The position numbers were made by a program, and so were the translations under genes. Below, piece after piece: positions 7,219 through 40,376 of a stretch of DNA of 64,000 nucleotides (positions are counted from its first letter, which is position 1; each line of letters opens with the position of its first letter). Origin of the DNA: Streptomyces sp. PCS3-D2 (GTDB lineage: Bacteria; Actinomycetota; Actinomycetes; Streptomycetales; Streptomycetaceae); contig NZ_CP097800.1 in assembly GCF_000612545.2 (NCBI RefSeq), forward strand, positions 3,697,001 through 3,761,000, in the 5' to 3' direction. The notes beneath the pieces were generated by a model. It was not told where the DNA came from and searched no databases. It saw nothing but the letters and a program-made list of their open reading frames with translations.

Positions 7219-9213
7219 ATGAGCACCGAACCCACCGAACACATAGCGCCGCGGCGGGCCCGGCACCATCCGCTGGCGCCACCCGACTGGCTGCTCCAGG
7301 GGCTGAAGCCGACCACCGCACCCGTCCCCTGGCCCGCCACCGTACGAGCGGCGGTGGCCCTGTCCGTCCCGCTCGCCGTCGGCTTCGCGCTGAACGAGCC
7401 CGAATACGGCGCGCTCGCCTCCATGGGCGCCCTCTCCGGAGTGATCGGCGACACCGCCGACGCCTACCGGATGCGCGTCCTGAACATCGCCGTCCCACAG
7501 GTCTTCGGCGCCGTCGGCGTGGCCCTGGGCACCCTCGTCTACGGCCACGGCTGGGTGGCCGTCGGCGCACTCACCCTCATCGCCCTGCTCTCCGGGATGA
7601 TCTCCTCCATCGGCACGGTCGCCTCCGTGTCCGGTCTGCTGCTCCTGCTCAACGCCGTGGTCGGGGCCGGTCTCCCGATGCCACGGCCCTGGTGGATCGC
7701 CCCGCTGCTGCTGAGCGCGGGCGGGCTCTTCGTCCTCGTCCTGACCCTGCTGGGCTGGCCGCTGCACGGCCGCCGACCGGAACGGACCGCGGTCGCCGCC
7801 ACCTACCGGGCCCTGGCGGACACCCTGGAAGCCGCCGGCGGCCCCGGCGACATCTACGACGAGCGGCGCCGCCGGGTCACCCGGGAACTCAACCGGGCCT
7901 ATGACCTGATCCTGGGCCGCCGGGCCCGCGTGCACGGGCGCAGCCCGTCGCTCGTCCGCATGCTCGCGCAGCTCAACGTGGTGATCCCGCTGGTGGAGGC
8001 CGCACCCGCCGCCCACCTGCGCGGGCGGCCGCTGCCTGCCGAGATCCCCGCGGCCGTACGGGAGCTCGCGGCGGCCGTCGAGGAGGGCCGCACCACAGCA
8101 CCCGCGCTCGACCTGCCCGAAGCCCGTACTCCCGCCGAACGGGCCGTGGACGCCGCACTGCGGCACGCCGCGTCGGTCGTCCACCTCGCCGAACCGGACC
8201 CGCACAACGTGGACGACCGCCTCGGCCGCCCCGCCGCGCTGACCGTGCGCACCCGGCGGGCGGTGCGCGACATGATGCTGTCCGAGGCCTCCTGGCGCTA
8301 CGGGCTGCGGCTCGCACTGTGCATCGGCCTCGCGCAGTCCCTCGTGTCGGTGGTCGAGCTCGAACGGTCCTACTGGATCGCGCTGACCGTCACCTTCGTC
8401 CTCAAACCGGACTTCGGCTCGGTGTTCTCCCGGGCCCTGCTGCGCGCCCTCGGCACCGCGATCGGGCTGGTCGTCGCCGCCGCCGTGCTCGCCGAAGTAC
8501 CGCGCGGCTGGTGGGACGTACCGGTCATGATGGTGCTCGGCGCGCTGATCCCGGTCTTCTCCGCCAAGGGCTACGCCTTCCAGACCGCCGCGATCACCCC
8601 GGTGATCCTGCTGCTCTCGGACCTGCTCAACCACCAGGGCTTCGACCTGATCCGCCCCCGGCTGCTGGACAGCCTGATCGGCTGCGCCATCACCCTGACC
8701 GCCGGATACCTGCTGTGGCCGGAGAGCTGGCACACCCGCATCGGGGACCGGCTCGCCGACACCGTGGACGACGCCGCCCGTTACGTGGAACGGGCCTTCG
8801 CACCGGCCGCGGACGACGCGGCCCTCGCGGCGGCCAGGACCACCCGCCTCCAGGCCCGGCGGCGGCTGTACCGCGACCTGTCGGGCGTACGCAGCGAGTT
8901 CCAGCGGGCGCTGACCGAGCCCCCGCCGACCGGCACCCGGGCCGCCGCCTGGTGGCCGCTGGTGGTCGCCGTCGAGCGGATCGTGGACGCGTCCACCGCC
9001 GCCCGGGTCCGCGTCAACCACGGCGCCCCGCCGCCCGCGGCCGAGGAGGTGGCGGCCGTCGCGCGACAGCTGCGGGAACTGGCCGGCCGGGTGCGCAGCA
9101 GCACCGTCCCGGTCCGGGTCGAGGGCGAACCGGAGGGCGACCAGTCGGGCGTCCTGGCCCCCGTCCACCAAGAGCTCGCGGCCGCCCGCGCCATCACCCG
9201 GCCGGAGCGCTGA
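7219..9213 (+). CDS. FUSC-family inner membrane protein
   Basis: 664 aa. Two membrane blocks (about residues 45-180 and 345-500), each followed by a cytoplasmic helical domain, are the FUSC/aromatic acid exporter layout. The second block carries the recognisable YWIALTVTFVLKPDFGSVFSRALLRALGT run of the FUSC_2-type domain. The ATG at 7219 follows AACGGGA. It probably exports small organic or aromatic compounds; the substrate is unknown. It may be co-transcribed with the lipoprotein and sensor kinase that follow (gap of 37 bases). Confidence 0.88.
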   Translation: MSTEPTEHIAPRRARHHPLAPPDWLLQGLKPTTAPVPWPATVRAAVALSVPLAVGFALNEPEYGALASMGALSGVIGDTADAYRMRVLNIAVPQVFGAVGVALGTLVYGHGWVAVGALTLIALLSGMISSIGTVASVSGLLLLLNAVVGAGLPMPRPWWIAPLLLSAGGLFVLVLTLLGWPLHGRRPERTAVAATYRALADTLEAAGGPGDIYDERRRRVTRELNRAYDLILGRRARVHGRSPSLVRMLAQLNVVIPLVEAAPAAHLRGRPLPAEIPAAVRELAAAVEEGRTTAPALDLPEARTPAERAVDAALRHAASVVHLAEPDPHNVDDRLGRPAALTVRTRRAVRDMMLSEASWRYGLRLALCIGLAQSLVSVVELERSYWIALTVTFVLKPDFGSVFSRALLRALGTAIGLVVAAAVLAEVPRGWWDVPVMMVLGALIPVFSAKGYAFQTAAITPVILLLSDLLNHQGFDLIRPRLLDSLIGCAITLTAGYLLWPESWHTRIGDRLADTVDDAARYVERAFAPAADDAALAAARTTRLQARRRLYRDLSGVRSEFQRALTEPPPTGTRAAAWWPLVVAVERIVDASTAARVRVNHGAPPPAAEEVAAVARQLRELAGRVRSSTVPVRVEGEPEGDQSGVLAPVHQELAAARAITRPER

Positions 9214-11254: not shown

Positions 11255-13342
11255 TCAGACGCCGATGTTCTTGCCGTCCTTGCGCCAGACCGAGACGACG
11301 GCCGGGCGGACGATCTTGCCGGGACCGTCGGGCCACACCGACTGCGGCTTCTCGACGGACGCGCCGTCGATCTCGCCCGGGTGCTGGACGGCCACCAGGA
11401 CGCGCTTGTCCTGGATCAGCGGGCCGCAGGTCTCGGCACCGCGCGGCACGGTCAGGAACTGCTTCAGCTCGCCGCGGCGTTCACCGCTGGTGGCGACGCC
11501 GAACAGGCCGTCGTGGGAGCCGAGCTGGTTGCCGTCGGTGGAGATCCACAGGTTGCCGTGCGGGTCGAAGGCCACGTTGTCGGGGCAGGAAATCGGGCTG
11601 ACCTTGTCCTTCGGGAAGCCGGCGAAGTAGGTCGCCGGATCGTTCGGGTCGCCGGCGACCAGGAAGAGCCGCCAGGCGAAGCCGTCGCCGGCCGGGTCGT
11701 CGAAGTTCTCGGCGAGCTCCAGGATCTGGCCGTGCTTGTTCAGGTTGCGCGGGTTGGCCTCGGTGGCGCCTTCCTTGCCGGGCTTGCCGCGGTCGGTGTT
11801 GTTGGTGAGCGCGATGTAGACGCGGCCGGTGCGCGGCGAGGGCTCGACATCCTCGGGGCGGTCCATCTTGGTGGCGCCCACCTTGTCGGCGGCCTGGCGC
11901 GTGAAGACGTACACCTCCTCGGCGGTCATGCCCTCGACGTGCGAGACGTTGCCGGTGGCCAGCTTGATCCAGACGCCGGAGCCGTCGAACTCGCCGTCGG
12001 AGGGGATCGTGCCGGTGCCGTCGATCTCAGCGGCCGGGCTGTCACCGGTGAGCTTGGCGACGTAGAGCGTGCCCTCGTCGAGCAGCGTGAGGTTGTGCTC
12101 CTTCGCCGCGCGCGAATTGCCCTTCTTCATCTGCTTCGACGAAACGAACTTGTAGAAGTAGTCGAAGCGCTCGTCGTCGCCCATGTAGACGACCGGGCGG
12201 CCGTCCTCGGTCAAACGCGGCTGCGCGGCCTCGTGCTTGAAGCGGCCCAGCGCGGTGCGCTTGCGCGGGACGGAGTTCGGGTCGTACGGGTCCAGCTCGA
12301 CGACCCAGCCGAAGCGGTGCGACTCGTGGGGCTCCTGGGCCACGTCGAAGCGCTTGTCGAAGCGCTCCCACTTGCGCTCGGTGGCGCCGGAGGTCACGCC
12401 GTAGCGCTTCAGGCGGGCGGCGGCAGCAGGGTCGGTGACCTGGCCGGCGTTGCCGAAGTACTGGTTGAAGTTCTCCTCACCGTGGAGCGTGGTGCCCCAC
12501 GGGGTGGTGCCGCCGGCGCAGTTGTTGAGGGTGCCGAGCACCTTGGTGCCGGTCGGGTCGACGGAGGTCTTGAGCAGGGCGCTGCCCGCGGCCGGACCGG
12601 TCATCCGGAACTCGCTGGTGGCCGTCAGGCGGCGGTTCAGCTGGTGGCGGGAGACGGCGGTCAGCTTGCCGCTGCGGTGGTCCTCCTGGACGACGACCAC
12701 CGACAGGCCGTGCGCGGCCCAGGCGATCTCGACCTGCTCGCGGGTCGGGTTGGCCGGATCGTACGCCTTGAACATCAGGACTTCGTCCGTGTACTCGTGG
12801 TTGGCCACGAGCAGCTGCTGGCGTTCGTAGCCCCCGCCGAGCGGCAGAAGGCTCAGGAAGTCGTTGTTGTAGCCGAACTGGCCGGCCTGTGCAGCGGCGG
12901 TCTGCTTGTCGGCGTTGAAGCCCGGGGCGCCCTTGATGATCGGGTCGCCCCAGCGGATGACCACGTTCTGCTCATGGCCCTCGGGGACGGTGACCTTGTC
13001 GTCGGTGTTCGGCGCGACGGACGTGAAGCGCAGGCCGCGGGCGGCTTCGCCGCGCCGGCCCGCACCGGCGGCCGCGGCGTCGGCGACGGGAGCCGCGCTG
13101 GCGGTCTGGCCCGACGCACTGAGCGCGACGGCGGAACCGGCCGCGGTGGCGACCGTCACGACGGCGGCGGAGCGGAGCATCGCGCGGCGGGAGTAGGCGC
13201 GGGCTATCACATCGCCCGCGTACTCGTTGTCGCTCGTGTTCGGCACCTCGTGGAAGCAGGCGTCACCACAGCGGTAACGACAGGTGAGAGCGGAACGGCC
13301 GCTCCCATGCGGGTTGCCGATGAACGGCAGGAGCTTGCGCAC
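11255..13342 (-). CDS. phoX: PhoX-family alkaline phosphatase (DUF839), Tat-exported
   Basis: 695 aa. The GTG at 13342 is preceded by GGAGGA seven bases upstream and begins VRKLLPFIGNPHG. A Cys-rich leader (CRYRCGDACFHEVPNTSDNEY) comes before the twin-arginine motif SRRAMLRS (Arg 52-53) and a hydrophobic run to ASAAP near 85. The mature part is a PhoX/DUF839 beta-propeller: GDDERFDYFYKFVS, FPKDKVSPISCPDNVAFDPHGNLWISTDG. PhoX enzymes are Ca/Fe-dependent phosphomonoesterases released under phosphate starvation. A PHO box at 13434-13455 supports PhoP control. Confidence 0.9.
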   Translation of the reverse strand: MRKLLPFIGNPHGSGRSALTCRYRCGDACFHEVPNTSDNEYAGDVIARAYSRRAMLRSAAVVTVATAAGSAVALSASGQTASAAPVADAAAAGAGRRGEAARGLRFTSVAPNTDDKVTVPEGHEQNVVIRWGDPIIKGAPGFNADKQTAAAQAGQFGYNNDFLSLLPLGGGYERQQLLVANHEYTDEVLMFKAYDPANPTREQVEIAWAAHGLSVVVVQEDHRSGKLTAVSRHQLNRRLTATSEFRMTGPAAGSALLKTSVDPTGTKVLGTLNNCAGGTTPWGTTLHGEENFNQYFGNAGQVTDPAAAARLKRYGVTSGATERKWERFDKRFDVAQEPHESHRFGWVVELDPYDPNSVPRKRTALGRFKHEAAQPRLTEDGRPVVYMGDDERFDYFYKFVSSKQMKKGNSRAAKEHNLTLLDEGTLYVAKLTGDSPAAEIDGTGTIPSDGEFDGSGVWIKLATGNVSHVEGMTAEEVYVFTRQAADKVGATKMDRPEDVEPSPRTGRVYIALTNNTDRGKPGKEGATEANPRNLNKHGQILELAENFDDPAGDGFAWRLFLVAGDPNDPATYFAGFPKDKVSPISCPDNVAFDPHGNLWISTDGNQLGSHDGLFGVATSGERRGELKQFLTVPRGAETCGPLIQDKRVLVAVQHPGEIDGASVEKPQSVWPDGPGKIVRPAVVSVWRKDGKNIGV

Positions 13343-33884: not shown

Positions 33885-33916
33885 AGGCCGCCCCCCAGGA
33901 AGGCGGGGAGCGGCCT
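33885..33916. terminator. Hairpin between convergent aminopeptidase and NHL-thioredoxin genes
   Basis: AGGCCG (33885-33890) pairs with CGGCCT (33911-33916), with G/C-rich inner pairing that is imperfect. It lies in the 50 bases between two converging stops. Confidence 0.4.
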
Positions 33917-35760
33917 CAGCCCTCCTCGTCCATCCCGGCCAGGACGAGGGGGAGCCGGGCGGCGCCGTCGGCCGTGACCCGGACGGGCACGCCCCAGTCC
34001 TGCTGGTGGACGTGGCAGGCCGGGTACTCGTTGGCCGGGTCGTCGTCGCAGGACGCCGCCATCGCCGAGACGTGCAGCACGCCCTCGGTGAGGTCGGGGT
34101 TCAGCTCCAGTTCCCGGAACAGGTCGGTCCCCGCGCCCTCCCCCGACGTCAGCAGCTCGGGCGGGGTCGAGGAGACCAGCAGGCGGGTGGAGGGCCCGTA
34201 GCGGGTATCGAGCTTCTGCCCGCTCGGGGCCCGGAAGACCACGTCGAGGCGCAGCGTGCCGGGCGCCACCTCGGTGGCGGCCCGCTGGGTGCGGTGGGCG
34301 ACCGCGTCCACCCGTACCGCCTCCTCCGGGAGCCGCAGCCGGGTCAGGCGGTGCCGCGCGGACTCGACGACCACGATGTCCTCTCCGACCAGGACGGCAT
34401 CGCTGGGCTCGCGCAGGTCGGTCGCCAGGGTCGAGACCTGCCCGGTAGCCGGGTCGTAGCGGCGCAGCGCGTGGTTGTAGGTGTCGCACACCGCGACCGA
34501 GCCGTCCGGCAGGGCCGTCACCCCGAGCGGGTGCTGGAGCAGGGCCTGGGCCGCGTCCCCGTCCCGGTGCCCGAAGTCGAACAGGCCGGTGCCGACGGCG
34601 GACGTGACGGCGTAGCCGGAGTCGGTGGCGTGCACATAGCGCAGGGCGCTGGTCTCGGAGTCGGCGATCCACAGCCGGTCCCCGGCGGCGGCGAGCCCGG
34701 ACGGCTGGGCGAACCAGGCCTCCGCGGCCGGCCCGTCGTGCAGCCCCTCGTTGGTGGTGCCGGCGGCCACCTCGACGGTCCCCTCCGCCGGGTCCCAGGT
34801 CCACAACTGGTGGACACCGGCCATGGCGATCCACACCTTGCCCTGCCACCAGGCCACGTCCCACGGCGAGGACAGATCCACCTCAAGGGCCGGGCCGGAG
34901 GTCGGCGAGCCCTGCCACCACTGCCGTCCGGTGCCGGCGACCCTCTCGACCGCCCCGGTCTCCAGGTCGAGGACGCGCAGCGCGTGGTTGACGGTGTCGG
35001 CGACGACCACCCGCCGCCCGTCGGGCAGCAGCGCCAGCCCCTGCGGCTCGCTGAAGCTGTCCCCGGTGAAGCCGCGCTCGCCGCTGCCGATGCGGCGTAC
35101 GACGCTCTCCCCGTCGGCGGCCAACTCGACCAGCTGGTGCCGCGTCGAGTCCGAGACCAGCAGGTTCCCGCTGGGCAGGAGCAGCGCCTTCCCGGGGAAG
35201 CGCAGGTCGCTCGCGACGGGCTCGGGCGCCACGTACGGCCCGTCCCCGCGCCGCAGGGTGCCCTTGGCCTGGTGCTCGGCCTCCAGCTCCTCGACCAGCT
35301 TCGCGATGGCGTGCGCATGCCCCTCGCCGGCGTGCTGGGCGACGATGTACCCCTCGGGGTCGATCACGACGAGCGTGGGCCACGCGCGCACGGCGTACTG
35401 CTTCCAGGTGGCGAGCTCGGGGTCGTCCAGGACGGGGTGGTGCACCTCGTAGCGCTCGACGGCGTCGACGACGGCCGCGTGGTCGGCCTCGTGCACGAAC
35501 TTCGGCGAGTGCACGCCGACGATCACGACGGTGTCGCTGTGCTTCTCCTCCAGCTCGCGCAGCTCGTCGAGGACGTGCAGGCAGTTGATGCAGCAGAAGG
35601 TCCAAAAATCGAGGATCAATGTGCGACCTCGGAAGTCGGCCAGCTTCAGATCTTTGCCGCCGGTGTTGATCCATCCACCCTTGCCGATCAGCTCGGGGGC
35701 ACGGACACGGGCACGGCGGGGTGCGGGCGCAGGGGTGGGCGCCGAGGCAGCATCGTTCAT
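33916..35760 (-). CDS. NHL-repeat protein with N-terminal thioredoxin domain
   Basis: 614 aa. Residues about 20-160 are a thioredoxin/TlpA-like domain with the active-site region DFWTFCCINCLHVLDEL and the cis-Pro region AWPTLVVIDPEG; the remainder is an NHL beta-propeller (LPSGNLLVSDSTRHQL, LPDGRRVVVADTVNHALR, LPDGSVAVCDTYNHALR). No signal peptide is seen. The first roughly 53 codons and the upstream sequence were probably supplied by the integrative element: a diverged second copy lies at 40035-40202. The integration point coincides with the DFW codons. Confidence 0.9.
   Translation of the reverse strand: MNDAASAPTPAPAPRRARVRAPELIGKGGWINTGGKDLKLADFRGRTLILDFWTFCCINCLHVLDELRELEEKHSDTVVIVGVHSPKFVHEADHAAVVDAVERYEVHHPVLDDPELATWKQYAVRAWPTLVVIDPEGYIVAQHAGEGHAHAIAKLVEELEAEHQAKGTLRRGDGPYVAPEPVASDLRFPGKALLLPSGNLLVSDSTRHQLVELAADGESVVRRIGSGERGFTGDSFSEPQGLALLPDGRRVVVADTVNHALRVLDLETGAVERVAGTGRQWWQGSPTSGPALEVDLSSPWDVAWWQGKVWIAMAGVHQLWTWDPAEGTVEVAAGTTNEGLHDGPAAEAWFAQPSGLAAAGDRLWIADSETSALRYVHATDSGYAVTSAVGTGLFDFGHRDGDAAQALLQHPLGVTALPDGSVAVCDTYNHALRRYDPATGQVSTLATDLREPSDAVLVGEDIVVVESARHRLTRLRLPEEAVRVDAVAHRTQRAATEVAPGTLRLDVVFRAPSGQKLDTRYGPSTRLLVSSTPPELLTSGEGAGTDLFRELELNPDLTEGVLHVSAMAASCDDDPANEYPACHVHQQDWGVPVRVTADGAARLPLVLAGMDEEG
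35601..35610. other. Candidate attL core inside the thioredoxin motif
   Basis: TCCAAAAATC on the plus strand (DFW codons on the minus strand). It aligns with TCCAGAAATC at 40043-40052, where the homology between the two gene copies stops. It marks the left end of the integrative element. Confidence 0.6.
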
Positions 35761-35814
35761 GTTTCAAGCTTGCCATCCGCGTGTGAAGGCGGGATCCCGC
35801 CCGTACGAAGCGAC

Positions 35815-36045
35815 TCAGGGCACCCGCTCCACCACGGCGACTTCCGAGAACTCCCGGAGGAAGGTCATGTGACCGGTCCGGCCGGTGTGCTGTATGCACA
35901 TGTCGGTGCACACGTCAGCGTTCCCGGTCGGCTCGGAGGTCCACTGGCAGTCCGGGTTCAGGCACCGCGCGGTTGCCGTGGTCTCGGCCGATGGGTGGCG
36001 GCGCATGACGTAGCTCACGTATCGCATCACGGCTTTCACGCTCAC
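35815..36045 (-). CDS. Small Cys/His-containing protein at the element's left end
   Basis: 76 aa from a GTG that overlaps the previous stop as GTGA. It has paired cysteines (ARCLNPDCQWTSEP), another Cys pair (DVCTDMC) and HTGRTGHMTFLREF, so a small zinc-binding fold is likely. Similar short proteins (DUF7848-like by appearance) are frequent in streptomycete elements next to Scr1 regulators. A second, truncated copy of the last 38 codons is at 40262-40376. Confidence 0.75.
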   Translation of the reverse strand: MSVKAVMRYVSYVMRRHPSAETTATARCLNPDCQWTSEPTGNADVCTDMCIQHTGRTGHMTFLREFSEVAVVERVP

Positions 36046-36266
36046 GTCGACTCCCCGGGGTGCGGGTGGTTCCGGAGCTCCACGTTGCAGTCACTGACCA
36101 CGGAGCCGTCGCCTTCGAGGCGGGCCTCTCGACGCTGCGCAACCAGGGCGGCGCAGACTCCGCAGCCGGCTGCCGGTACGGGCTCCGGATCCGTTCGCAG
36201 CGGCAGCTCTACTGCGGGCTGCGCATAGGTGATCGGCTTCACGGCCCGATCTCGTGTCGTCCGCAT
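36042..36266 (-). CDS. Small hypothetical protein of the element
   Basis: 74 aa from the ATG at 36266 (MRTTRDRAVKPITYAQPAVELPL). It includes a C-x2-C (GCGVCAAL) and basic residues. No clear ribosome binding site, so it may be leaderless. A longer reading begins at 36314 without better support. It ends in a GTGA overlap with the next gene and follows the regulator gene after 63 bases. Function unknown. Confidence 0.65.
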   Translation of the reverse strand: MRTTRDRAVKPITYAQPAVELPLRTDPEPVPAAGCGVCAALVAQRREARLEGDGSVVSDCNVELRNHPHPGEST

Positions 36267-36329
36267 GGTGACCACGCTAGGAACGCCGAGGTCGCACTCG
36301 CCATGAGATTGCATGAGGTTGCACGGCTA

Positions 36330-37178
36330 TCACCGCAGGGTCTGAATGACGCTCGTGATCAGCGCTCGGGCCTTCGCTCCGTAGACCGCCATGTCAGCCA
36401 GCTCCCTGAACGTGTCCGCGTAAGCGGCAACCTCACTGGGCTGGGTCAGCGTGAGGTAGCCCGAGACCAGCTCGACGTTGACCTGTCCGGTGTCGAAGAT
36501 CCAGAACCCTTCCACCGGCATCCGGGAGCGTTCGGTTCGTGTGGGGACCACGCCCAGGCTGACGCTGGGCAAAGAGCCGACCGTGAGGAGGTGGCAGAGC
36601 TGTTCCTCCTGTACCTCCGCCCCACCGAGCCCGTTCCGCAAGACCGATTCCTCAACCAGGAACGCAAACCGCCGATCACCCTTGTAGAGCACGCGCTGAC
36701 GCTCCATGCGGACGGCGACCGCATCGGCAACGTCGTCCACTTCGACCCGTCTGCGCTGGACCGCGCGCAAGACGGCTTCCGTGTAACCGTAGGTCTGGAT
36801 CAGGCCCGGAACGAACCACGAGGAGTACGCGCGGAACCGGCGGGTTCGCTCGAAGAGCGGGAGACGGGCTTCCTGGGCCTGCTTGAGCCCGGCGCGCTCC
36901 ATGCGCCGCCACCCGACCCACATGCCTTCGGCGGTACGCAGCGAGGCCAAGAGGTCTTCCGTCTGATCTTCCGACCCGCACGCCTGGCACCAAGCCCGGA
37001 TGTCGTCAGGGGACGGGGGCGTGCGCGCGTTCATGATCCGTGACGACTTGGACGGATGCCAGGAGCACAGACGGGCGATGTCCCGTCCGGTGAGGCCGGC
37101 ATCCCGGCACAGCTCAGCAAGTCGATTCGCCAGAGCCTGCCGGGCCTGCTGTGCGCTTGATGAGGGTGAGACGGCCAT
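36330..37178 (-). CDS. Scr1-type XRE regulator (DUF5753) of the element
   Basis: 282 aa. Helix-turn-helix at about 14-60 (LANRLAELCRDAGLTGRDIARLCSWHPSKSSRIMN), followed by DUF5753 (VPGLIQTYGYTEAVLRAVQRRR, LVEESVLRNGLGGAEVQEEQL, VPVEGFWIFDTGQVNVELVSGYLTL in part). It is a distant paralogue of the regulator at 27769-28620. It probably regulates the element's cargo operon and is co-transcribed with the DUF6879 gene 12 bases upstream. Confidence 0.88.
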   Translation of the reverse strand: MAVSPSSSAQQARQALANRLAELCRDAGLTGRDIARLCSWHPSKSSRIMNARTPPSPDDIRAWCQACGSEDQTEDLLASLRTAEGMWVGWRRMERAGLKQAQEARLPLFERTRRFRAYSSWFVPGLIQTYGYTEAVLRAVQRRRVEVDDVADAVAVRMERQRVLYKGDRRFAFLVEESVLRNGLGGAEVQEEQLCHLLTVGSLPSVSLGVVPTRTERSRMPVEGFWIFDTGQVNVELVSGYLTLTQPSEVAAYADTFRELADMAVYGAKARALITSVIQTLR

Positions 37179-37190
37179 GGTGGTGACAGC

Positions 37191-37709
37191 TCAGCGCGGT
37201 CGGTACTGCTCGTGCGGGACGGCCCGTTGCCAGGCTGCTTCGAACGCAACGGCGCACAGCTTCACCCGCTCGGGCTCGTCCGTGTACTCCCGCCCGTCCT
37301 GGTCGAGCTGCCCGTTCCCGGTGAAGTGGTGGAACAGCGCCTGCGTGCTGTCGAACAGCCAGAAATCGGTACCCGGCAAGGCCAAGTCCGTCGTCTGCCG
37401 CCGTGGCAGCCACCGGACCAGTTCGCCCGCCGCGATGTTCGTGAAGGTGCAGTCGTACTCGTACCGCACGTAGTCGCTGATCGGCTCCGACACGATCCGA
37501 AGCCGCCGGACCACGACCCCTCGGGCCGTCGCTTCGCTTACCGCATCGTGCCAGCCGCCCCACCACGAAGACCGGTCAGCGGGGTCGAGGCGCTTCCCCT
37601 GCTGCCACGCGATGAACTCGGGATCACCGAGCATGTAGCTGTCACGCAACTCAAGGTGCACCGCCGAGTGCTTTGCTCGTGCGAGTGCATGACGGGCGGG
37701 TGGCTGCAC
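37191..37709 (-). CDS. DUF6879 family protein
   Basis: 172 aa. Family pattern visible: HLELRDSYMLGDPEFIAWQQGKR, WWGGWHDAVSEATARGVVVRRLRIVSEPISDYVRYEY, then LPGTDFWLFDSTQALFHHFTGNG. Proteins of this family sit beside Scr1-type regulators, both in chromosomal modules and in mobile elements; their biochemical role is not known to me. GTG start. Gaps to both neighbours are about ten bases, so they form one operon. Confidence 0.85.
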   Translation of the reverse strand: MQPPARHALARAKHSAVHLELRDSYMLGDPEFIAWQQGKRLDPADRSSWWGGWHDAVSEATARGVVVRRLRIVSEPISDYVRYEYDCTFTNIAAGELVRWLPRRQTTDLALPGTDFWLFDSTQALFHHFTGNGQLDQDGREYTDEPERVKLCAVAFEAAWQRAVPHEQYRPR

Positions 37710-37719
37710 GGCCTGCCTC

Positions 37720-37962
37720 TCAGTTGTCGTCCGGGCGCGGGATGTACTTCAGCATCACCGCGGGCAGCCGGATGATCGTCTCGTGGTCCGGAACGTCCGT
37801 GGAGTGACCCGGGATCGAACCGATCTCCTGGCACGCCTTCACCTCGTCCTCCGTCGCCTTGTACGACTGGATCAGAAGGTCGCCGGTCTCCTCGTGGAGC
37901 CAGATCGTCGGAGACTCGTCAGTCGGCGTGTTCGGGATGATGCCGAGGAACTTTAGGGTCAT
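37720..37962 (-). CDS. Small protein, first gene of the element's cargo operon
   Basis: 80 aa from the ATG at 37962 with GGGAG upstream. The pattern MTLKFLGIIPNTPTDESPTIW..TGDLLIQSYKAT..IPDHETIIRLPAVML resembles the short protein that commonly precedes DUF6879/Scr1 pairs in streptomycetes; I know no function. Acidic, no membrane segment. The operon promoter should lie in 37963-38350. Confidence 0.75.
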   Translation of the reverse strand: MTLKFLGIIPNTPTDESPTIWLHEETGDLLIQSYKATEDEVKACQEIGSIPGHSTDVPDHETIIRLPAVMLKYIPRPDDN

Positions 37963-38350
37963 GGTCGCTCCCGCCGTCGAGTGCCTTGCACCGGCGTGCA
38001 CGAGCCTCACCCTGGCGGCTGAGCCGCGCAAGAGGGCCTTTGCACAAGGCGGTTGGGCTGCAATCGAACGGACCAAAGCCCCCGCACCCCCGCACCCACC
38101 GCACCCATCGGGGCCGACGAGCACGGGCCCATGGTGTTCCAAGGCCCGCCGGGTGGCTTCGTGGGGCCTGCGGCGGGATTTGCAGGGCGTCAACTGTGCC
38201 GCTCTCGCGCCTTCGGTGATCGATATGCGCTGGTCAGAGCCACCGTGGGCCCGAAAAACGGAGTCACACCCAGCGTGCGCCTTCCGAGCTGGGGCCGGGG
38301 TCGGGATGGCGACCACAGGGCAACTTCGCACCGACGCTCGGGCCGCCCCA

Positions 38351-38453
38351 GTGACGAAGTGACGGAATGACGTTTAGTTCTATTCCATCCATAGAGACTC
38401 AGAACATCTCTTAAGGAGGTAATGGACTTCGACCGTCATTTCGTCACTTCGTC
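38351..38453. repeat. Inverted arrays of three 8-bp iterons downstream of the integrase
   Basis: Arm 1 (38351-38372) and arm 2 (38432-38453) are complementary at 21 of 22 positions. Each arm is itself built from three tandem TGACGRAR-type units (TGACGAAG, TGACGGAA or TGACGAAA, TGACG). The 59 bases between them are AT-rich. Arm 2 overlaps the integrase stop codon. The 473-base gap 37963-38435 holds no gene I accept. Confidence 0.75.
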
Positions 38454-40001
38454 ACCCGCCGGCTCCTCCCCAACACCGTCTCTCGACGCCCAGACGATCC
38501 GGCAGCGCTCGTCGCCGTCGAACCTCACGCCCACCCTGCCTCGCCGGACTTCCACTCGATCGATTGCGAGGCCAAGGCGCTCACGTCTTCCGGCCGCATC
38601 GTCGGCTTCCCAAGCTTCACGAAGCAGGCCCGCATCCAGGAGAGGAGAGATGTCCACGGAAGGGGTCGGCATCCGCAGTAGGTCCGCGCGCAGCCCCTCG
38701 ATCCGGGTACGAAGTCGTCCGGCGAGCCGGTTGTACCGGTCGATCGCGTCTGCGCCGGTGAACTCGCCACGGACGTACCTGGCCTCCTCCAGGTCCGCCA
38801 GACGGGCCCCCTCGTCCGCGATCTCCGCCTCGATCGCGTCCCGCTTCGCGAAAACCTCCGGGTCCTCCCTCTGTACCCAGCGATCGGCGATCACGGCGAG
38901 CAGCGGGTCCTGGGGCTCCAGGGACGGCAGGCGTGAGAGGAATGCCCGGGTTACGTAGTCGTCGATGCTCTCCACCCGAACCGAGACGCCGGAGCATCCT
39001 CGCCCCATCCGGTGGCTGGAGCACTGGTACGACGTGCCGGCCTTGCTCATCCGGGCCCCACAGAGCCCACAGCGCGCTATCCCGGTGAGCAGCGACTTCC
39101 CTTGCTTGTGACCGTGCCGCTTCCCCGCCAGAGGAAACGTGCGCGCTTCGAGCTGGCGGAGGATGAGCTCACGCTCCCCGACCGTGATGATCCCCTCACC
39201 GATGCTCACGGTCTCCAGCGTCTTTGGGTCCCGGTAGGGGGAGACCCGGTTCATGTACTTGCGGGTCCCGTCCGGCTGCTCCTCGTACTCGGTCTGCGGC
39301 ATGAGTCCGGCGAAGGCCGGTGAGCGAAGGAGCTGCATGACACTGGACGAGTTCCACTCGCCTCCGCGGGCCGACTCCACCCCGTGCTCGTTCAGCAGTC
39401 GGGCGATGTGGACGAGGGCCTTCCCGGACAGTGCTTCGTCGGCGATCAGGCGGGCGTAGACGGCGGTCTCGGGGTCGTGGACGAGCTTCTTCGTCTCCGG
39501 GTCCACCAGCAGCCCGTAAGGCGGCTGTCCGCCGATCCACTGGCCCCGCTGCCGTAGGTACCGCTTGGCGTTGCCGACGCGCATCCCAAGGTTGCGGGAC
39601 TCGTTGCGCGCCAGTTCCGCCAGCATCGCGATGGTGACCCGGGCGCTGTCGTTCTTCGTGTCGAGGCCGTCCATGACGGAGACCAGCCGTCCGCCGACCC
39701 GGCCTATGTCGTCCAGCGCCTTGCCCACCTCGCCGATGCCCTTGCGGGACAGGCGGTCGAGCTTCCAGACGATCAGAACGCCCACGACGCCGGCCGTGGC
39801 TGCTGTGATCGCCGCATCGAACCCCTTGCGGCTGACGTTCTTGTAACCGGAACGTCCACGGTCGATGTGGACCTTGCGGACGGTCAGTCCGTTGCGCTCC
39901 GCCCACGCACGGCAGTCGGCTTCCTGCCGGTCGATCGCGGTCTTGCCTTCCCGGTCAAGGGACAGGCGCAAGTACAGGTCAGCAGTGATGTGTTGGTGCA
40001 C
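38436..40001 (-). CDS. Large serine recombinase (integrase)
   Basis: 521 aa. Resolvase domain about 6-150 with catalytic Ser 14 in YLRLSLDR, RQEADCRAW, KLDRLSRKG and ARNESRNLGMRV; recombinase domain about 165-290; zinc ribbon CGLCGARMSKAG..QC...RGC near 330; coiled coil about 395-470 (EAEIADEGARLADLEEARY). The GTG at 40001 is the only start before the catalytic Ser. It lies about 40 bases from the right att site, as expected for a phage- or ICE-type integrase. Confidence 0.93.
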   Translation of the reverse strand: MHQHITADLYLRLSLDREGKTAIDRQEADCRAWAERNGLTVRKVHIDRGRSGYKNVSRKGFDAAITAATAGVVGVLIVWKLDRLSRKGIGEVGKALDDIGRVGGRLVSVMDGLDTKNDSARVTIAMLAELARNESRNLGMRVGNAKRYLRQRGQWIGGQPPYGLLVDPETKKLVHDPETAVYARLIADEALSGKALVHIARLLNEHGVESARGGEWNSSSVMQLLRSPAFAGLMPQTEYEEQPDGTRKYMNRVSPYRDPKTLETVSIGEGIITVGERELILRQLEARTFPLAGKRHGHKQGKSLLTGIARCGLCGARMSKAGTSYQCSSHRMGRGCSGVSVRVESIDDYVTRAFLSRLPSLEPQDPLLAVIADRWVQREDPEVFAKRDAIEAEIADEGARLADLEEARYVRGEFTGADAIDRYNRLAGRLRTRIEGLRADLLRMPTPSVDISPLLDAGLLREAWEADDAAGRRERLGLAIDRVEVRRGRVGVRFDGDERCRIVWASRDGVGEEPAGDEVTK

Positions 40002-40034
40002 GTCCCCACGCTAGCGAGGAGTGCGCACATTGAT

Positions 40035-40202
40035 TCAGGAAATCCAGAAATCTACAACAACGCACTTACCTCGCAGGTCGGCGAGGGTGAGCTCTTTGCC
40101 TCCGGTATTGAGCCAACCGCCCTTGCCGATCAGCTCGGGAGCGCGGACACGGGCACGGCGGGGCGCGGGCGCAGGGGTGGGCGCCGGGGCAGCATCGTTC
40201 AT
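40035..40202 (-). pseudogene. Truncated second copy of the NHL-thioredoxin 5' end
   Basis: Reads MNDAAPAPTPAPAPRRARVR.., nearly the same as the intact gene's N-terminus, to LRGKCVVVDFW. It then runs into IS and a stop where the element begins (55 codons). It differs from the intact copy at many third positions and several residues, so it is not a recent duplication. It shows that the gene was cut at the DFW codons. Confidence 0.8.
40043..40052. other. Candidate attR core
   Basis: TCCAGAAATC. It differs from the left core by one base, and similarity between the two gene copies ends here. About 40 bases from the integrase start. Confidence 0.6.
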
Positions 40203-40261
40203 CCTCACAGCTTGCCATCCGCCCGTGGACGACCCATCACGCCCGTACGAAGCGCCTGCTC

Positions 40262-40376
40262 AGGGCATGCGCTCCAGCACGGCGACTTCCGAAAACTCCC
40301 GGAGGAAGGTCATGTGACCGGTCCGGCCGGTGTGCCGGATGCACAGGGCGGTGCACACGTCCGCGTTCCCAGTCGG
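40262..40376 (-). pseudogene. Fragment of a second copy of the element's 76-aa gene
   Basis: On the minus strand TGNADVCTALCIRHTGRTGHM..VAVLERMP then stop is readable, matching the last 38 codons of the gene at 35815-36045 with a few differences. Similarity ends abruptly at about 40377. Because this gene belongs to the element, its presence outside the element suggests an older integration at the same place. Confidence 0.7.

Follow-up and report, generated by a model that had tools for sequence, protein, structure and literature searches.

Recurrent exchange of the 5′ end of a Streptomyces thioredoxin-NHL gene, probably by serine-integrase elements

Layout of the locus

The window analyzed here is a stretch of 64,000 nt from the 7.63-Mb genome of Streptomyces sp. 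PCS3-D2 (contig NZ_CP097800.1, positions 3,697,001 to 3,761,000), in which a small element with a large serine recombinase lies inside a gene for a thioredoxin-like protein with NHL repeats (Trx-NHL, below also Trx). The target gene (33916..35760, minus strand) encodes 614 amino acids (aa), which according to Pfam form a thioredoxin-like domain followed by NHL repeats, an arrangement like that of NHLRC2 and SOQ1. Fittingly, the best matches among solved structures are plant SOQ1 and human-type NHLRC2 (PDB 7djj, E 1.6e-89; 6gc1, E 4.6e-70). The gene is matched in 360 of 393 genomes of the genus (E ≤ 0.001), a count that takes in weak partial matches. Other genomes and loci are named below by G and L numbers where they have to be told apart.

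The element sits in codon 53 of the gene, the W of a DFW motif, and codons 1 to 52 are element-borne. Since the crossover dinucleotide is best placed at TG, the element measures 4,442 bp (35604-40045). Its six genes are all encoded on the minus strand and comprise the large serine recombinase (38436..40001), an 80-aa protein, a DUF6879 protein, a helix-turn-helix (HTH)/DUF5753 regulator, a 90-aa protein, and a DUF7848 protein. The core decamers TCCAAAAATC (35601-35610) and TCCAGAAATC (40043-40052) both lie within DFW codons. The element-borne 5′ end together with ~48 bp of upstream sequence (35604..35808, minus strand) is repeated beyond the far end of the element, where comparison with other loci identifies a displaced previous Trx 5′ end of class B that ends in GKCVVVDFW (40046..40202, minus strand). 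The repeats are direct, with 84% identity between 35626-35815 and 40068-40257 and 92% between 35814-35931 and 40259-40376. The outer copy of the second pair harbors codons 39 to 76 of a second DUF7848 gene (40262..40376, minus strand), the remnant of an earlier type-B element, whose product is 87% identical to the DUF7848 protein of the element.

A sequence-only reading of this DNA had proposed a serine integrase-bearing element that is bounded by the two decamers and keeps the gene intact by supplying its first roughly 53 codons. These claims hold, with the ends refined to the TG crossover and the supplied, in-frame 5′ end to codons 1 to 52. It had further placed a diverged second copy of the 5′ part, and the last 38 codons of the element's 76-aa gene, outside the right end. 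Both are borne out, and the repeats are no chance similarity, as other genomes have the same truncated Trx copy next to the integrase start.

Attachment sites

The TG at the left attachment site (attL; 35603..35604, minus strand) forms the first two bases of codon W53, and its counterpart at the right site (attR) lies at 40045..40046 (minus strand). Both are placed by the symmetry peak of attP, the site of the element before integration. On the coding strand, attL reads ...CGCACATTGATCCTCGATTTTTG|GACCTTC and attR reads ...GTTGTTGTAGATTTCTG|GATTTCCTGAATCAATGTGCGC. The candidate attP was built by joining the left arm of attL to the right arm of attR. The left arm (35604..35640, minus strand) is coding (...GACTTCCGAGGTCGCACATTGATCCTCGATTTT, translated DFRGRTLILDF) and has a GC content of 51% against 72% in the window, and the right arm (40012..40044, minus strand; GATTTCCTGAATCAATGTGCGCACTCC...) is its dyad partner.

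Dyad symmetry was scored over 25 positions with 300 shuffles in 18 of 25 loci, leaving out L108, L111, L116, L152, and three loci with a more distant integrase, type G. A unique maximum falls exactly between the T and the G of the TG in 17 of the 18 loci, with 12 to 17 of 25 positions matching. The shuffle means range from 6.0 to 8.8, and 11 of the 18 loci beat all 300 shuffles. Type-A arms share CGCACATTGAT, type-B arms share GTGC...TGTTGT, and the spacing is identical. The coding left arm specifies R-T-L-I-L-D-F in type A or K-C-V-V-V-D-F in type B, immediately 5′ of the active-site codons.

The integrase and its locus

The 521-aa type A integrase is assigned by Pfam, PHROG, and structure matches. 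It contains the Resolvase (PF00239), Recombinase (PF07508), and Zn_ribbon_recom (PF13408) domains in a phiC31-like layout, with phiC31-like sequence, and matches the integrase family phrog_95 (E 1.2e-84) and structure chain 9u2s (E 1.4e-17). Among the 393 genus genomes, a match with at least 54% identity (E ≤ 1e-60, fragments included, weaker matches of ≤43% left out) sits at the Trx locus in 25 of 25 genomes, the own genome included, and thus in 24 of 24 others. In all 22 loci in which Trx is present and the integrase match exceeds 400 residues, the two genes share a strand, with the integrase as the upstream one. One bacterial attachment site (attB) is used by no fewer than two integrase types, A and B, and the type-B integrase of G250 is 70% identical to that of the window. 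The type-G integrases of L085, L086, and L087 (55-68% identity) are found at the same gene and are preceded by other sequence (TTACCTT..GACTC...GTTCGTTCACAG).

Among phage records, 860 match the integrase, all with less than 60% identity, and the top-ranked one reaches 32% over 89%. The 138 matching plasmid records are likewise all below 60%, and none covers 80% of the integrase. A pattern scan of IMG/VR, which reaches close relatives only, gave no match. A phage or plasmid origin was rejected on the low identity of all these matches and the empty IMG/VR scan.

The Trx gene itself seems dispensable, because it is almost wholly lost beside the integrase in two genomes, and deletions next to the integrase seem to occur. 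In G104 (L075) only the displaced 5′ end is left, and in G159 (L079) only the last 56 codons. Six Trx matches in G104 had raised the possibility of extra stacked copies, which was rejected, as five of them are partial, 31-39% identical, and ~4.8 Mb away.

Displaced copies and succession of elements

At 27 loci the DNA beside the 5′ end of the integrase was classified by eye. A displaced Trx 5′ copy is recognizable in 16 (three of them frameshifted), reduced to a few codons in eight, and absent in three. The 16 recognizable copies, also sorted by eye, comprise 12 native-like ones, three of the other type (B beside a type-A integrase), and a single A-like copy beside a type-A integrase (L112). 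In L111, L116, and L078, the residual displaced codons follow directly after the stop of a neighboring gene that ends in ...ALKDRVLGR; loss of the displaced copy may stabilize the element there by removing the repeat.

The displaced copy of the window (40046-40376) has a B arm. The match that scores highest is to the complete type-B element of G250 (88.7% over 337 nt, the DUF7848 end included), compared to 85.8% over 309 nt for the A copy of the window itself. Given the B arm and the match to the G250 element, a type-B element came first in the window and decayed to its 5′ end and the last 38 DUF7848 codons, after which a type-A element used the same site. L109 shows the same order, as does L152, where it is preserved in decayed form next to a piece of an integrase. 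Tandem accretion at one site with the older element outermost is therefore seen in the window, L109, and L152, and is probable in L081.

The nearest relative in hand, G042, has a gene body that is 95% identical, and the pairing receives a Shimodaira-Hasegawa-like approximate likelihood ratio (SH-aLRT) of 100 in a quick tree. Its Trx locus has no integrase or cargo match, and its N-terminus is a third, native form (RITILDFW). The functional copy of the window is 70% identical to G042 at positions -36 to -9 before the crossover and matches it after the crossover. Upstream, similarity to G042 stops at 35808 for the functional copy and at 40250 for the displaced one. In G042 (L089, 8961-10300), ~1.3 kb lie between a DUF4240 gene and Trx that are absent from the window; this segment may have been lost from the window with the first element or gained in G042.

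The sequence-only reading had inferred an earlier, related, and partly deleted element as well as repeated use of attB with a swap of the N-terminus each time. The remnant can now be assigned to type B, and the use of the site to at least two integrase types, with the real change narrowed to ~15-20 codons before the active site. The checks it had named point the same way: a relative without an element match has the native N-terminus, differs from the window before the crossover and matches it after, base-level mapping of attL and attR yields one dinucleotide and a symmetric attP, and the integrase is found at this NHL-thioredoxin locus in all 24 other genomes with a match of at least 54% identity.

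N-terminal class, integrase, and gene body

The last 72 nt up to DFW follow the integrase more closely than the gene body. Their distances correlate with integrase distance at r 0.76 (Mantel p 0.0002, n=22) and with body distance at r 0.22 (p 0.05, n=22), and the integrase and gene-body distances correlate at r 0.17 (p 0.08). Two changes of N-terminal class are needed on the integrase tree, owing to L081, compared to 35 changes on the gene-body tree, a quick tree of 115 loci (47 A, 42 native, 22 B, and four G) that were partly picked for class diversity. The well-supported branches of the body tree alone force at least 21 changes for A and at least 15 for B.

Pairs of loci show where the sequence changes. 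In 11 hand-picked near-sister pairs of differing class, identity is 52-74% at -36 to -9 and 92-100% across the crossover. Conversely, in eight same-class pairs with distant bodies (81-85%), the arm is 93-100% identical. Codons 1 to ~30 are conserved in all classes and would therefore mask gene conversion between the two 5′ copies, which was also looked for. As they hardly differ, the real change falls in the ~15-20 codons that directly precede the active site.

Arms lacking an integrase match

A search of the 393 genomes for the functional arm patterns yielded 41 with the A type and 23 with the B type, and reversed control patterns gave no match; the patterns are degenerate, and a few members (e.g., G043 and G073) may be look-alikes. 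An integrase match at E ≤ 1e-60 accompanies the arm in 11 of 41 A-arm and 7 of 23 B-arm genomes only. The arm thus stands without such a match in 30 of the 41 genomes of class A and in 16 of the 23 of class B, together 46 of 64. Element debris, i.e., pieces of DUF7848, cargo, or integrase, is kept in L149, L157, L171, L142, L152, and L158.

The upstream DNA was compared for the 35 loci in hand that have an A or B arm and no match to the integrase, DUF7848, or the 90-aa gene. In several of these scar loci it resembles that of native neighbors, as in L098 and L096 (84% over 657 nt), L032 and L020 (83% over 638 nt), and L167 and L138 (88% over 869 nt). The upstream DNA of 7 of the 35 loci matched nothing, and some matched element ends alone. 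If the integrase excised the element, the old 5′ end would return; the scars must therefore have arisen by a different route. Recombination between the two 5′ copies would be the simplest one, and allele exchange between strains is also conceivable.

Proposed mechanism and alternatives

The reading favored here, with a probability of roughly 0.88, is that a site-specific element recombines its attP with attB in the Trx-NHL gene, swapping the first 52 codons, and that this has happened repeatedly in Streptomyces. The proposal is built from comparative sequence data. The serine integrase would recombine attP and attB between the T and the G in codon 53, directly 5′ of the codons for the CCINC active site. 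The sequence shows the left attP arm to be part of the reading frame, so that integration exchanges the first 52 codons and the start region for the version of the element and pushes the old 5′ end beyond the integrase. Comparison of the loci shows that this has taken place many times in Streptomyces, with no fewer than two integrase types (A and B) that have different arms and a shared attB. The elements decay, and the arm persists as a scar in the target gene. The window first received a type-B element, of which the arm and the DUF7848 fragment remain, and type A then entered the same site. It is presumably this integrase that performs the integration in vivo, and the hybrid Trx gene is presumably expressed and functional. 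Full loss of the element would proceed mainly via homologous recombination between the 5′ copies and not via excision by the integrase.

Several observations weigh against this reading. In 7 of the 18 loci at least one of the 300 shuffles equals or beats the symmetry score, L078 lacks a unique symmetry peak, author-written rules fixed the attR core in a few odd loci, and the loci are related and not independent. No displaced Trx copy accompanies the type-G integrases that occupy the locus in L085-L087. In L081 (G025), the integrase is of type B and the N-terminus of class A; the order of its genes points to three stacked layers (a cargo fragment, a B integrase, and A-type cargo with an A arm), and the middle, type-B junction expected inside L081 was looked for and not found. 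The class labels are regex-based, and some (L126, L170) are GC-rich, ameliorated forms. The labels are also clustered on the body tree, where 35 changes compare with a mean of 53.5 for shuffled labels, so vertical inheritance also plays a part. A sliding-window correlation does not clearly separate N-terminal windows (r 0.21-0.35) from body windows (0.18-0.57), its direction being as expected. Finally, the 5′ edge of the scar is blurred.

The alternative with the most weight, which is nonetheless considered rather unlikely, is that the N-terminal classes spread mostly by homologous recombination among the Trx alleles of different strains, with the integrase having only introduced them. The 46 of 64 arm genomes without an integrase match, the native-neighbor-like upstream DNA of several scar loci, and the gradual 5′ edge of the tract all agree with this. 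However, the 3′ edge falls at the crossover core in the compared pairs, and element debris lies upstream in several genomes without an intact integrase. Allele exchange would moreover supplement integration by the element and not replace it. That the copies are direct repeats 4,442 bp apart would fit a plain segmental duplication of the 5′ part of Trx, with no connection to the integrase, as the origin of those at 40 kb. This reading was rejected and retains next to no probability, as in many other loci the duplicate breaks off at the same core, where it meets the same integrase-proximal arm, and the two window copies fall into different arm classes.

Tandem elements can move together, as described in PMC5704250, and the B remnant and the A element could accordingly have arrived as one composite. 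Yet a type-A element has displaced a B-like scar in L109 and L152, where no DUF7848 was found outside, and scarred targets are readily at hand given how often arms occur without an integrase; a joint arrival is therefore improbable. It is even harder to view the integrase as a domesticated, immobile part of a Trx operon. Domestication would fit the short distance in 6 of the 22 loci, where no more than ~320 nt separate the end of the integrase match from the start of Trx, and the constant co-orientation of the two genes. Its patchy presence in 25 of 393 genomes and its poor agreement with the body phylogeny speak for mobility instead, as do the displaced 5′ copies that are also present beside two short forms, L114 and L066, of which L066 keeps a vestige of DUF7848 as well.

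Beyond the exchange of 5′ ends by a site-specific element, a wider and tentative proposal sees in this serine-integrase family a genus-wide engine by which the strand ahead of the active site in a single conserved redox protein is rewritten again and again. As an integrase half-site and a protein strand at once, the attP arm would be doubly constrained. Scars may block integration by the same integrase type and not by others, which would drive alternation between types, such as B followed by A. The idea builds on reports that serine integrases recombine attP with attB alone unless a phage-encoded factor is present (PMC3783163); because the leftover arm turns attB into an attL-like site, a scar may protect the gene from elements of its own type. 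The near-absence of same-type displaced copies (1 of 16) fits such immunity in a suggestive, not a statistical, sense.

Cargo and element variants

The cargo genes of the window follow one another on the minus strand. The 76-aa DUF7848 protein (35815..36045) matches Pfam PF25232 (E 2.6e-9). The hypothetical 90-aa protein (36042..36314) is conserved in related elements and has no family match in Pfam, NCBIfam, PADLOC, or PHROG. The regulator (36330..37178) carries HTH_31 and DUF5753 domains by Pfam and matches phrog_9908, and the DUF6879 protein (37191..37709) matches PF21806 (E 2.3e-53). The hypothetical 80-aa protein (37720..37962) likewise has no match in these four collections and is 98-99% identical in L107, L108, L109, and L076. 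No phage structural or replication genes were detected, PHROG matches being confined to the regulator and the integrase, and the six proteins gave no PADLOC match that would indicate defense cargo. Neither a relaxase nor TraB and Rep, which define integrative and conjugative elements (ICEs), integrative and mobilizable elements (IMEs), and the actinomycete ICEs (AICEs), was found among the six proteins with Pfam, NCBIfam, and PHROGs.

The gene set of the window recurs in S. lilacinus (L107), S. huiliensis (L108), and Streptomyces sp. H27-S2 (L109). G250 (L076) has the same set, but with a type-B integrase and a class-B 5′ end. Other cargo includes a 165-aa protein with a methyltransferase in L068, L105, L152, and, beside a type-B integrase, L081. 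In L105 this pair lies at 7612-8879 (similar in L068, L081, and L152); its methyltransferase matches the methyltransferase part of PADLOC mad2 (285-421 of 492, E 6.1e-23), and the pair is possibly modification or defense cargo. A small resolvase is present in L071 and L072 and truncated in L073. L106 carries a HEAT-repeat gene (12365-13135), assigned by a weak Pfam match at threshold. DNA similar to it lies directly upstream of Trx in L078, L142, L150, L155, and L166, at both A- and B-type loci, with and without an integrase. Where the integrase match ends within ~320 nt of Trx, the element is little more than an integrase and a 5′ end; Kitasatospora paracochleata (L112) has a gap of ~448 nt. 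Judged from such distances, elements of this family measure ~1.9-5 kb.

Relation to known elements

Islands in dusA are integrated by tyrosine-type integrases. The element of the window has neither a DusA-type integrase nor dusA as its target. A dusA island replaces the 5′ end of the gene and leaves the remnant 5′ end at its far side (PMC4482086), so that an in-frame 5′ end supplied by the element and an old one at the other side are shared with the Trx element. The example deleted in that account spans tens of kb, in contrast to ~1.9-5 kb, a serine integrase, and a Trx-NHL target here. Unlike in dusA islands, the attP arm of the Trx element encodes residues beside the active site, and scars and succession can be traced. 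ICEs of the SXT/R391 family use the 5′ end of prfC and differ in their tyrosine recombinase, conjugative nature, and nearly identical attP and attB (PMC2791158). More generally, islands often reconstitute the gene they enter (PMC12884075).

Accretion and decay have been described for IMEs (PMC5704250) and for Streptomyces AICEs (PMC9513070). Serine-integrase IMEs resemble the Trx element in their recombinase, their site within a gene, and accretion with decayed elements. They are said to disrupt the target (PMC5704250), whereas the Trx element keeps the gene in frame, with no relaxase found. Streptomyces AICEs likewise show several elements at one site, decay, and remnants, but lie mostly at tRNA sites and are defined by integrase, Rep, and TraB (PMC9513070), the last two being absent from the Trx element. 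A serine-integrase prophage of M. abscessus in codon 6 of a SpoU-like methyltransferase gene also uses a site near the 5′ end, and its authors leave open whether expression is reconstituted (PMC10654092); in the Trx element the replaced 5′ end is visible and in frame. Phage integrases of the phiC31 type share the domain layout and have similar sequence, and the Trx element is without phage genes.

Significance

No report of an integrative element in this Trx-NHL gene was found in the open-licence PMC literature. Replacement of a 5′ end on integration is already known; what is new is the serine integrase, the coding attP arm, and the genus-wide turnover, together with the sharing of one site by two integrase types, arm-bearing genomes that have no integrase match (46 of 393), and a clear succession. 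The family is also a source of candidate serine integrases, of no fewer than two types, for which attP is defined and attB is conserved in Streptomyces. It opens to testing how integrase half-sites evolve that must also encode a protein strand, whether scars confer immunity to re-integration, and how much of the N-terminal mosaicism in other conserved genes is element-borne. With its junctions mapped to the base and its comparative set, the locus shows that a site-specific mobile element can repeatedly give rise to such mosaicism in a conserved gene and leave a trace that outlasts the element itself.

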